Assembly (NCBI GenBank): GCA_001513155.1 | Contig: LFSR01000037.1 | Location: 1 to 64,000, forward strand | Source: Syntrophomonas sp. DTU018 | Lineage (GTDB): Bacteria > Bacillota > Syntrophomonadia > Syntrophomonadales > Syntrophomonadaceae | Direction of reading: 5' to 3' | DNA length: 64,000 nucleotides | In this document: one piece after another, positions 4,932-46,256 of the stretch | How the letters are laid out: the number at the start of each line of letters is the position of its first letter | Numbering within the stretch: position 1 is the stretch's first letter | Translations under genes and position numbers: made by a program | The notes under the pieces: generated by a model | What the model was told of the DNA's origin: nothing | Databases searched by the model: none | The model's input: the letters and a program-made list of their open reading frames with translations, nothing else

Positions 4932-5711
4932 TTGCAGGTACATGTTTTAGCCAGCGGCAGTACCGGCAATGCGGTATTGCTGAAGTTCGGACCAACCCGG
5001 CTGCTGGTGGATGCCGGCATCAGTGCTCGCAGAATTGAGCGGGGACTGGCCGAGCTGGGCATTCGAGCAGCGGATCTGGACGGTATTTTAATAACCCATG
5101 AGCACCGGGATCACATTAATGGCCTGGATGTACTGGTCAGGCGCCATCAGATACCAGTTTATGCCCGGGAGAAAACCTGGGAATACATACCTTGTCTCCA
5201 TCGCTTGCCGCTGCACTGCTGTAATTCCTTCCAGGGTGCCTTTGAAATAAAAGGAGTATGGATAGAGCCTTTTTCTACCTCTCACGATGCGGCTGATCCG
5301 GTCGGATTTGCTTTTTCCTATGGTAAGAAGCGCTGTGTCCTGGCTACCGACCTGGGGGTGGTTACCCCCGAGGTGGAGAATGCCCTGCACAATGCCCAGG
5401 TGGTGATTTTAGAGTCCAACCACGATTTGGAAATGCTGCACCGGGGGCCTTATCCTCCTTATTTGAAGCAGCGCATTCGCAGCAATAAAGGGCACCTGTC
5501 CAATCATGACGCCGGCAAGGTACTGAGCCGGCTGAAACGCAGTGAAACCATGCATGTGTTCCTGGCTCACTTGAGCCAGCAGAACAATGATCCTCTCCTG
5601 GCCAAGAAAACGGTATCTTATTTTCTCTCCAAGGCAGGATGCCAAATAGGAGACGAAGTAGTACTCCATCTCACTTTCCCGGATCAAACCGCCAGCCTAG
5701 TGTCCAAGTAA
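4932..5711 (+). CDS. walJ: MBL-fold metallo-hydrolase, WalJ/YycJ-like
   Basis: A 259-aa metallo-beta-lactamase-fold protein. The metal-binding motif THEHRDH is at about residue 56, later ligands are in the HDAADPVGF and LATDLGVVTPE segments, and a conserved HLSNHDAGKVLSRL stretch and C-terminal HLSQQNNDP follow. This matches YycJ/WalJ proteins, proposed to act as DNA exonucleases that link cell division and replication or mismatch repair in Firmicutes. The TTG start is supported by GGAGG 5-6 bases upstream. It stands alone here, not in the walRKHIJ operon found in Bacillus. Symbol assigned by family resemblance. Confidence 0.82.
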   Translation: MQVHVLASGSTGNAVLLKFGPTRLLVDAGISARRIERGLAELGIRAADLDGILITHEHRDHINGLDVLVRRHQIPVYAREKTWEYIPCLHRLPLHCCNSFQGAFEIKGVWIEPFSTSHDAADPVGFAFSYGKKRCVLATDLGVVTPEVENALHNAQVVILESNHDLEMLHRGPYPPYLKQRIRSNKGHLSNHDAGKVLSRLKRSETMHVFLAHLSQQNNDPLLAKKTVSYFLSKAGCQIGDEVVLHLTFPDQTASLVSK

Positions 5712-5826
5712 AAAAGCCATTCTCATGAAGTCTTCATATCAATCATTGCTGTGAAAATAGTCTTGTGTCATTGCTGTGAAAACGGCTTCCCTAGTATGTC
5801 ATGGCTGGGATAATAGCTCCCAATTG

Positions 5827-6146
5827 TGTCATTGCGAGCGCGTAGCGCGTGGCAATCTCCAACGGGGAGACAGATAGACGAATGAGATTGCCGCGCCCCT
5901 TTCAGGGGCTCGCAATGACATATAAGAGGACTTTTCATTCATCGTGGCCTGTGCTTCACGTGATAATTGCGAGCGCGTAGCGCGTGGCAATCTCCGTGGC
6001 AACTAACGGTGCGAGTTAACAGATCGCCACGTCGCTTCGCTCCTCGCGATGACATAACCAAAAGCCCATCATATGTGTCATTGCGAGGCACGAAGTGCCG
6101 TGGCAATCTCGAACGTACAACTATTAATAAGCTTTTTGACACGCTG
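5827..6146. repeat. Array of five palindromic modules plus the right end of the small mobile element
   Basis: The 480-base gap between two convergent genes holds five copies of a 29-37 bp imperfect palindrome with core ATTGCGAG ... GGCAATCTC: 5827-5859 (+), 5884-5920 (inverted), 5966-5994 (+), 6022-6054 (inverted, GATCGCCAC variant) and 6076-6110 (+). The last is followed by the conserved tail ATTAATAAGCTTTTTGACACGCTG (in two overlapping parts, 6123-6140 and 6135-6146), which also ends the elements at 28103-28256 and 39273-39442. The linker at 5938-5965 (GTGCTTCA, GTGATAAT) is shared with the 39273-39442 copy. No open frame here looks real; the frames crossing the array are translations of the repeat. 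Confidence 0.9.
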
Positions 6147-6175
6147 AGAGAACCCGGATTCCTCCGAGTTCTCTC
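6146..6175 (-). terminator. Stem-loop after the sod gene, abutting the element end
   Basis: An inverted repeat (GAGAGAAC and CGGA, then TCCG and GTTCTCTC) lies 20 bases beyond the sod stop and would fold as the 3' stem-loop of that leftward gene. On the minus strand it is followed directly by the terminal sequence CAGCGTGTCAAAAAGC of the small mobile element, the same arrangement seen behind pyrG and the M23 peptidase gene. Confidence 0.6.
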
Positions 6176-28102: not shown

Positions 28103-28256
28103 GAGACTGTCGAAAAAGGCTATGATAAGAGATCGCCACGTCGCTGCGCTCCTCGCGATGACATAACCAAAAGCCCATCATTTGTGTCATTGCGAGGCAC
28201 GGAGTGCCGTGGCAATCTCGAACGTCCAACTATTAATAAGCTTTATTGACACGCTG
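28103..28256. mobile_element. Small non-autonomous element, copy A, inserted behind the pyrG terminator stem
   Basis: A 154-bp element running from GAGACTGTCGAAAAAGGC to AAGCTTTATTGACACGCTG. The ends are imperfect inverted repeats (the right end reversed reads CAGCGTGTCAATAAAGCTT). Inside are two palindromic modules, one inverted (28131-28163) and one direct (28185-28219). The flanks 28073-28102 and 28257-28286 are a 30-bp direct repeat, 29 of 30 identical, that contains the whole terminator hairpin. No protein is encoded. Confidence 0.75.
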
Positions 28257-28257
28257 A

Positions 28258-28285
28258 GGGCAGTATCCGTACCTGGATACTGCCC
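28258..28285 (-). terminator. Right copy of the duplicated hairpin, likely terminator of the CoA-transferase gene
   Basis: The same 11-bp stem as at 28074-28101 lies 13 bases beyond the stop of the leftward CoA-transferase gene. Each of the two convergent genes thus keeps one copy of what was probably a single shared bidirectional terminator. Confidence 0.75.
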
Positions 28286-28298
28286 AATCCTTTTCTGT

Positions 28299-38389: not shown

Positions 38390-39247
38390 GTGTATAAACG
38401 ATGGGTAGGATCCCTGGTGTTGGGTATACTCTGCACAGGTATCCTGACAGCGCCGGCCTGGGGGGCCTTGAATCAAGGCAATTTTATTCCCGCCAGCAGA
38501 GCAAAGGCTGCGGCAGCGGAAAGCCAGGTCAGGTACTACCAGGTGCAGAAAGGTGATACGCTTTGGGATATATCCAGAAGTTTTAATGTTGATCTGCAGA
38601 CTCTAACCTCCATAAACAACCTAGACCGTAACAGTATTCTGAGAATAGGCCAGACGTTGAAGATCCCGGGATCAGGCCAGCGCCTGCATGTTATCCGCCC
38701 CGGGGAAACCATGTGGGATATTGCCGCCCGCTATAATGTAAGCTTAACTAGCTTAAAAGCAGCCAATCCCACCAAGAATCCGGTCAATCTCAAGATAAAT
38801 GACCAACTGGTGATACCATCCTCCACCTACCAGGTGGCGCAGGTTACTGAGCAGCCCTCCCGGGGATGGTCCTATACCGGTCTCTTTACCTGGCCGCTGG
38901 TGGGTACCATTACCTCCGGGTATGGATGGCGCCAGTCAGGATTCCATCACGGCATCGACATTGCCGGAGACATAGGAGATCCTATTAAAGCCTGTGCTGC
39001 CGGGACAGTCACCTTTGCCGGAAATAAACCTGTTTACGGGCGGACAGTTATCATTGCGCACCCGGACGGGAAGGAGACCCTGTATGCCCATTTGCAGACT
39101 ATCAAAGTATCCAAGGGGGATAGCGTAGCCAGAGGGCAGGTAATCGCCACGGTGGGAATGACCGGGAGGACTACTGGACCCCACGTGCACCTGGAAGTCC
39201 GCAACAAGGGGGAATTGTGCAATCCCCTTACTTACCTTAGCCGTTAA
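38390..39247 (+). CDS. LysM and M23 domain cell-wall endopeptidase
   Basis: A 285-aa exported protein. A signal peptide (LVLGILCTGILTAPAWGA) is followed by two LysM peptidoglycan-binding repeats (YYQVQKGDTLWDISRSF and HVIRPGETMWDIAARYNVS). The C-terminal M23 metallopeptidase domain carries zinc motifs HHGIDIAGDIGDPI and GPHVHLEV. It probably cleaves peptide cross-links of peptidoglycan. The GTG at 38390 is 6 bases after GAGGTGG; the ATG at 38375 lacks a binding site. Catalytic residues are intact, so it is likely an active hydrolase, not a degenerate activator. Confidence 0.92.
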   Translation: MYKRWVGSLVLGILCTGILTAPAWGALNQGNFIPASRAKAAAAESQVRYYQVQKGDTLWDISRSFNVDLQTLTSINNLDRNSILRIGQTLKIPGSGQRLHVIRPGETMWDIAARYNVSLTSLKAANPTKNPVNLKINDQLVIPSSTYQVAQVTEQPSRGWSYTGLFTWPLVGTITSGYGWRQSGFHHGIDIAGDIGDPIKACAAGTVTFAGNKPVYGRTVIIAHPDGKETLYAHLQTIKVSKGDSVARGQVIATVGMTGRTTGPHVHLEVRNKGELCNPLTYLSR

Positions 39248-39256
39248 AAAAATGAC

Positions 39257-39271
39257 GCCCCCTAAGGGGGC
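39257..39271 (+). terminator. Terminator stem of the M23 gene, left copy of a duplicated hairpin
   Basis: A 6-bp GC stem (GCCCCC, TAA, GGGGGC) lies 9 bases after the stop. Its own T run is missing; the small mobile element begins right behind it. The matching hairpin with a full T run is at 39445-39465. Confidence 0.8.
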
Positions 39272-39272
39272 T

Positions 39273-39442
39273 CAGACTGTCGAAAAAGGCCATGTAAAGA
39301 GATCGCCACGTCGCTGCGCTCCTCGCGATGACAGGCTTAAGTTTTCGTTTATCGTGGCTGTGCTTCAGGTGATAATTGCGAGGCACGGAGTGCCGTGGCA
39401 ATCTCGAACGCCAAACTATCAATAAGCTTTTTTGACACGCTG
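39273..39442. mobile_element. Small non-autonomous element, copy B, inserted behind the M23 gene terminator stem
   Basis: A 170-bp element from CAGACTGTCGAAAAAGGC to AAGCTTTTTTGACACGCTG, with imperfect terminal inverted repeats. It holds an inverted palindromic module at 39301-39333, a linker (TATCGTGGCTGTGCTTCAGG) also found in the array at 5940-5965, and a direct module at 39375-39405. Flanks 39256-39272 and 39443-39459 are a 17-bp direct repeat with two differences that contains the terminator stem-loop. No coding capacity. Confidence 0.75.
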
Positions 39443-39444
39443 CA

Positions 39445-39465
39445 CCCCCTGAGGGGGCTTTTTTT
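39445..39465 (+). terminator. Rho-independent terminator, right copy of the duplicated hairpin
   Basis: CCCCC, TGA, GGGGG at 39445-39457 is followed by CTTTTTTT, a complete terminator. Transcripts from the M23 gene would read through the element and stop here. Confidence 0.85.
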
Positions 39466-46044: not shown

Positions 46045-46256
46045 AGCAAGTATTAGCCGGCTCACTCCGGGACTTCCTCGCCTGCAACCCATCGGCAAAC
46101 TTTAAGTGCGAAGGGGACCGCTCGTAATTCGGCATCCATGCACTCAGTACTCGCTGCTCGAAACATCCTGTTTCTCGCTCCCCTTCGCAGCCCACAGCTG
46201 CGCCGTGGGTTGCAACGGCTCGTCGTAAGTCGCTCACCGGCTGATACTCCTGCTTA
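46045..46256. repeat. Long imperfect palindrome, second repeat family
   Basis: The left part (46045-46115) and the right part (46180-46256) are imperfect inverted copies of each other: the left contains GCAAGTATTAGCCGG, CTCGCCTGCAACCCATCGGC and TGCGAAGGGGA, and the reversed right arm reads GGAGTATCAGCCGG, GAGCCGTTGCAACCCACGGC and TGCGAAGGGGA. The centre spans about 65 bases. The right arm plus part of the centre recurs at 12160-12256. No transposase is encoded; it may be a MITE or a structured RNA. The remaining 46257-46480 holds the promoter below and no convincing gene. Confidence 0.65.

Follow-up and report, generated by a model that had tools for sequence, protein, structure and literature searches.

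In Syntrophomonas sp. DTU018 a short mobile element adjoins terminator hairpins of unrelated sequence, and the whole hairpin is copied to the far side of the element. What serves as target is the shape of the DNA, and the sequence of the hairpin is unimportant. As judged from sequence, the element is a non-autonomous member of the IS1182 family (a MITE), presumably mobilised by an IS1182 transposase. A preliminary description had depicted two copies in the window (the whole stretch of 64,000 nucleotides that was analysed) as a mobile element with inverted ends, inserted at two terminators by a process that selects the stem-loop and not its sequence, and the genome-wide data presented below bear out this picture.

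The sequence across the first site reads TTAAAAAAATGA, left hairpin CGCCCCCTAAGGGGGCT, element CAGACTGTCGAAAAAGG...GCTTTTTTGACACGCTG, right hairpin CACCCCCTGAGGGGGCT, TTTTTTATGG. The following features can be distinguished:

39273..39442, plus strand: non-autonomous IS1182-type mini-element (MITE), 170 bp, longest ORF at most 56 codons, at least 51 complete copies in its own genome
39273..39288, plus strand: left terminal inverted repeat CAGACTGTCGAAAAAG, 0 mismatches to the end pattern
39427..39442, minus strand: right terminal inverted repeat, in minus-strand reading CAGCGTGTCAAAAAAG, 13/16 matches to the left repeat
39256..39272, no strand: left copy of the target duplication, the entire hairpin CGCCCCCTAAGGGGGCT, without a plus-strand T-run
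39443..39459, no strand: right copy of the target duplication, the entire hairpin CACCCCCTGAGGGGGCT
39246..39252, plus strand: A-run to the left of the left hairpin, the minus-strand T-tail of the original terminator
39459..39465, plus strand: T-run to the right of the right hairpin, the retained plus-strand T-tail of the original terminator; the hairpin at the empty site of G002, a genome of the same genus, has the same T-run

The direct repeats at 39256-39272 and 39443-39459 are identical at 15 of 17 positions, and each folds into a hairpin. A terminator scan recognised exactly two terminator-like sites at this locus: the left hairpin (39257-39271), whose T-tail is read on the minus strand, and the right one (39445-39457), whose T-tail is read on the plus strand. 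This agrees with the earlier remark that only the right hairpin has kept its T-run. The neighbouring genes encode a LysM/M23 peptidase and a radical-SAM protein. An Rfam search revealed no known RNA family or intron in the element; elsewhere in the window, at 46070-46229 on the minus strand, it matched the TwoAYGGAY RNA motif (RF01731) with 44.1 bits, just exceeding the gathering score of 43. The interior of the MITE (39296-39405, 28131-28217 and many other loci) is made up of palindromes of the type GTCATTGCGAGG...CGTGGCAATCTC; the same units are present in mosaic arrays and on an unrelated Oscillospiraceae contig (L254), where they precede an IS1182 gene. These units seem to come from a separate repeat family captured between the IS ends.

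The second site lies between the genes for CTP synthase (pyrG) and an acetyl-CoA hydrolase/transferase-like protein, and part of a third copy is found near the start of the window:

28103..28256, plus strand: 154-bp copy of the element beside the pyrG terminator (the second site), with 98-99% identity to copies elsewhere in its own genome
28073..28102, no strand: left copy of the target duplication at the pyrG site, the entire hairpin AGGGCAGTATCCGTTCCTGGATACTGCCCA
28257..28286, no strand: right copy of the target duplication at the pyrG site, 29/30 identical; a single hairpin stands at the empty sites of G002 and G003
6131..6146, plus strand: right end belonging to an older, mosaic copy (the third in the window), with a hairpin following at 6147-6174 (AGAGAACCCGGATTCCTCCGAGTTCTCT)

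According to folding, each 30-bp repeat of the pyrG site is one complete hairpin. The third, mosaic copy (window 5690-6174) consists of internal palindromic units, the right end and its hairpin; no left end or left hairpin was found for it.

A listing of all copies with their flanks, one of the checks proposed in the preliminary description, was compiled from the draft genome (2.56 Mb, 59 contigs). The element gave 88 blastn matches, with many further matches to its ends, and at least 51 copies, 114-402 bp long, have both ends. The longest open frame in the window copies has 56 codons, and the element contains no transposase gene. For each copy the sequence ending at the left border was compared with the sequence starting at the right border, and a repeat was called at an ungapped score of at least 12; the null distribution came from 2550 mismatched left/right flank pairings of the same 51 copies, the best of which scored 9.0. 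Against this maximum the 39273 site scored 12 and the pyrG site 27.5, thus the suspicion that chance was an unlikely explanation for two such examples was justified. Direct repeats of 17-35 bp (median 25.5), each of them one complete stem-loop, flank 42 of the 51 copies, so it is not the case that most copies lack hairpins. Three of the remaining nine (L211, L030, L070) have degraded, gapped repeats of the same kind, with gapped scores of 13.5-14 as against 15 for the best mismatched pairing. No clear flank repeat was detected in the other six of the 51 copies; decay, recombination or misassigned ends are possible reasons.

The borders of the 42 repeats coincide with the feet of the stems. When the first six bases of a repeat are set against its last six, 82% are paired in register, and this value drops to 36-44% if the register is shifted by one base and to about 25%, the chance level, if it is shifted by three or more. 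Pairing climbs from 52% just outside the repeat and 48% at its outermost base to 86-93% at positions 2-6 within it. The two bases at the repeat ends, which lie one step outside the G+C stem, are mostly A at the beginning (29/42) and T at the end (28/42). The hairpins themselves differ from site to site (AAGCCGCCCAATTCGGGGCGGCTT, ACCGCCATCCATAACCGGAGGGCGGT and AGCCCACAGGCTGAAAATGCCTGTGGGCT are examples), and because unrelated hairpins are duplicated with borders in register with the stem feet, the length of the duplicated stretch must be dictated by the palindrome; neither a motif nor a constant base count determines it. A T-run or A-run is present on at least one side of 37 of the 42 sites (right T-run only at 16, left A-run only at 12, both at 9), and five sites have no run on either side. 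Since both orientations occur and some sites have no run at all, it is the hairpin that matters and not the direction of transcription. At 28 of the 38 sites that could be scored the 3' end of a gene points at the site from a distance of 60 bp or less, and none of the 38 insertions is inside an ORF.

Related genomes preserve the sites without the element. G002 has at the locus corresponding to 39273 a single hairpin, GGGCCCCCTAAAGGGGGCTTTTTTT, and no insert, confirming the earlier proposal that a single original terminator had the A-run on one side and the T-run on the other. At the pyrG locus the element is absent from both G002 and G003, which have one hairpin each (GGGGCAGTACCGAGGGATACTGCCCC and AAAGGGTCTGTATCTTTCATAGGATACAGACCCTTT, respectively). 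With one hairpin standing at the empty counterparts of both window loci, it follows that the hairpin is a part of the target and that insertion duplicates it. The pyrG locus of G001 (L264, 3120-3400) offers a different situation: a related element is situated there between two copies of that genome's own diverged hairpin, AGGGCAGTATCTGCGATACTGCCCT. This element matches the window copy in 127 of 156 aligned columns, as compared with the 98-99% identity between copies within the DTU018 genome, and for this reason the two elements are most simply regarded as independent insertions into the same terminator in two species.

The search for a full-length transposase gene with the same ends, also proposed earlier, had a divided outcome. 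Searches with PF13751 and NF033551 gave no match in the 59-contig draft of the strain itself, and no transposase gene with matching ends (CAGACTGTC) was found there. A MITE usually has an autonomous partner in its own genome, though this is not strictly required; multicopy IS elements are often missing from draft assemblies, as in the DTU019 assembly described next, and MITEs can outlive their partner. It counts against the proposed explanation that the strain's own draft does not contain an IS1182 transposase, so that we infer the mobilising enzyme from a different genus. Syntrophomonas sp. DTU019 (G005, same family) has a multicopy IS1182-family IS with the ends CAGACTGTCGAAAAAC and CAGACCGTCAAAAAAGGCCATG; the left end of the MITE agrees with one of these at 15 of 16 positions and with the other at 20 of 22 (over 22 nt). 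The ORF of this IS starts with LERAPNLRNNLQIVDLEGMVPQDHLLRKIDKVVDF, which resembles the start of IS1182 transposases (VPxDHLLRKIDKVVDF type). The interior of the IS is missing at contig ends, and three pairs of contig ends (L237 and L242, L236 and L240, L116 and L239) share a hairpin, thus the insertions of the DTU019 IS also duplicate whole hairpins. The 53-residue transposase fragment of DTU019 alone gave no Pfam match, and its family assignment rests on homologues with longer genes, which match NF033551 (IS1182 family) and PF05598 and, where the gene is complete, also PF13751; L256, L254 and L246 exceed the NF033551 cut-off and L252 is just below it. The MITE thus has ends matching those of an IS1182 element, is short and multicopy without a transposase gene, and shows the same target behaviour.

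Full-length IS1182 relatives behave alike. When one such IS1182 transposase served as query against 398 Bacillota genomes, seven genomes with well-resolved full-length copies were obtained, and 19 of 20 such copies are bordered by whole-hairpin repeats, 17-35 bp long and identical or almost so, e.g. AAGCGCAGGAGTAGTTTTTACTACTTCCTGCGCTT, AGGCCGGGGGCTTCGGCCCCCGGCCT and AGCCCGGGAACGAGCCCGGGCT. The remaining copy, L306, has unlike hairpins at its two ends, the result to be expected if copies had recombined. The count of 20 leaves out copies cut by contig ends and L289, a copy on a draft contig with two different hairpin-like flanks. Four further whole-hairpin cases were seen in other genomes (L128, L156, L252, L256). 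In 23 repeats of full-length IS the pairing at positions 2-8 from the repeat ends is 87-100%. We also noticed that full-length IS of the whole-hairpin group (L116, L250, L252, L256, L261) have a hairpin and T-run of their own just inside the left end, which possibly keeps read-through transcription at terminator sites out of the transposase gene.

Other IS1182 elements make short duplications, 4-9 bp overall: those with GAGACCACTG ends, from the same bacterial family, duplicate 9 bp and other subgroups about 4-5 bp. The IS1182 elements of G023 and G027, with short duplications and different ends, belong to such other subgroups and were kept as a contrast. Whole-hairpin duplication is therefore the trait of a subgroup and not of the whole family. 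In the transposase tree the whole-hairpin group falls on one side of a branch with support 85/92, to which we give little weight because L254 is grouped there without duplication evidence and the branches are long. As a separate observation, the GAGACCACTG-ended elements (L133, L166, L186, L245) insert in long GGGGACGGTTC...GAACCGTCCCC palindromes with their 9-bp duplications, and one of them, L245 in G004, lies between GGGGACGGTTC and GAACCGTCCCC in a way that looks like hairpin replacement of the IS1272 style.

DDE transposases join the 3' ends of the element to both target strands, and the distance between the two joints becomes duplicated. Very probably an IS1182-family DDE transposase mobilises the MITE in trans. 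It would recognise a stem-loop by its shape, in most cases that of a Rho-independent terminator and most likely in the form of an extruded cruciform, and gap repair would duplicate the hairpin. Strand transfer would take place at both 5' stem feet of the cruciform, which would be adjacent across the four-way junction although 17-35 bp separate them along the duplex. The entire hairpin would then be copied by gap repair, leaving the insertion bracketed by two complete hairpins and making the target duplication as long as the palindrome. A range of 17-35 bp could hardly be spanned by a rigid enzyme on B-form DNA, and an extruded palindrome could allow it, the feet meeting at the junction. We also lean towards the wider proposal that a widespread branch of IS1182 picks its targets purely by four-way-junction or cruciform geometry, the palindrome setting the spacing of strand transfer and hence the 17-35 bp duplications. 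Short terminator palindromes are costly to extrude, which counts against a cruciform, and it is possible that a single-stranded or protein-induced hairpin is the target instead.

The main rival is a hairpin recognised in single-stranded DNA, on the lagging strand of replication forks or on the strand displaced behind RNA polymerase, with both strand transfers occurring at the feet of one hairpin. Terminator hairpins do fold readily as single strands, transcription might expose such strands at the 3' ends of genes, where the sites lie, and single-strand targeting is known for IS200/IS605. We nevertheless consider this unlikely. The partner enzyme, a DDE transposase of the IS1182 family working on terminal inverted repeats, should use double-stranded DNA; the two orientations relative to the T-run (16 vs. 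12) show no clear preference; and the precise duplication of a whole hairpin follows most simply from two joints on opposite strands. It is much less plausible still that the element inserts at one hairpin foot and that no true target duplication takes place, the second hairpin being a later product of recombination or template switching. A relative, IS1272, can delete hairpins, so that repair at such structures need not be conservative (Wan et al. 2017, PMC5678879), but the identical whole-hairpin repeats described here, one per side with matched feet in 19/20 full-length IS and 42/51 MITE copies, are too regular for a secondary event.

Two further explanations have next to no probability. 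Hairpins carried along as part of the element, in long composite terminal repeats, would account for a hairpin directly bordering nearly every complete copy, but practically every site has a hairpin of its own sequence and length beside a conserved element, and the empty orthologous loci with one hairpin refute the idea, which the preliminary description had itself named as fatal to its reading. Nor is terminator targeting of the REP/RAYT or group IIC intron type credible, despite the REP-like look of the GTCATTGCGAGG...CGTGGCAATCTC units and the known insertion of group IIC introns beside terminators, in view of the IS1182-type terminal inverted repeats, the targets duplicated on both sides, the lack of coding capacity and the negative Rfam result. 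A REP/RAYT element would be a single tagged palindrome with neither terminal inverted repeats nor target duplication, and the MITE has both.

Of the known systems, the closest to the MITE is IS1272/TnSha1, an IS1182-family element of staphylococci with stem-loop-replacing transposition and target structures of 21-85 bp (PMC5678879, PMC4923244). It shares with the MITE the transposase family and the use of terminator hairpins of unrelated sequence and variable length, i.e. inverted repeats with no fixed sequence, as in our 42 unrelated duplicated hairpins. However, IS1272 removes the hairpin without target duplication, whereas the MITE keeps and duplicates it (PMC5678879, PMC4923244); classification as an IS1272-type replacing element was rejected, as 42 of the 51 copies have two complete hairpins. 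Duplication of the whole stem-loop was drawn by Wan et al. (2017) only as a hypothetical pathway b of the IS1272 model (PMC5678879), and the present set of insertions fits that pathway.

With the IS1182 family in general the system shares a DDE transposase (NF033551 / PF05598 and PF13751) and terminal inverted repeats, and some members of the family are said to target palindromic sequences (Siguier et al. 2015, as cited in PMC5678879). Other members differ by their short duplications, 4 bp in ISPse1 (PMC3281130) and ISCaa15 (PMC3196728) and 9 bp in the GAGACCACTG subgroup, as against a whole hairpin in the MITE. In Methanosarcina acetivorans MITEs of 160-169 bp were assigned to an IS1182 partner (PMC3852290); unlike for our MITE, the table of that paper gives short direct repeats or none and notes no hairpin duplication. 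IS elements in REP palindromes (PMC1525189) resemble the MITE in having palindromic extragenic targets, but those targets are specific repeat sequences and the targets of the MITE share only a palindromic shape. Hairpin targeting by IS1182 elements (PMC4923244, PMC5678879) and IS1182-derived MITEs (PMC3852290) are thus already known. We found no report of whole-hairpin duplication as a regular outcome, for a MITE and a broad IS1182 subgroup, in the literature searched, ISfinder and the main IS reviews being outside its coverage. ISfinder gives variable direct-repeat lengths for the IS1182 family, therefore an earlier record of the phenomenon may exist there.

Most DDE transposases cut the target strands at a short, fixed stagger. 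A stagger that tracks the length of a palindrome, from 17 to 35 bp and to the exact base, is strong evidence from nature that strand transfer is guided by structure, and dozens of natural insertion sites, together with several intact elements in complete genomes, make the cruciform model put forward for IS1272 testable. The insertion splits the terminator into a left hairpin without a plus-strand T-run and a right hairpin with one, so transcription of the upstream gene is predicted to continue across the element and to end behind the second hairpin, with termination kept and the element turned into 3' UTR. Insertion downstream of genes, with one hairpin and its T-run left whole, also explains how the element can spread safely to high copy number. 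Near-identical paired terminators around short intergenic inserts in Bacillota may accordingly be scars of transposition, and not designed double terminators.
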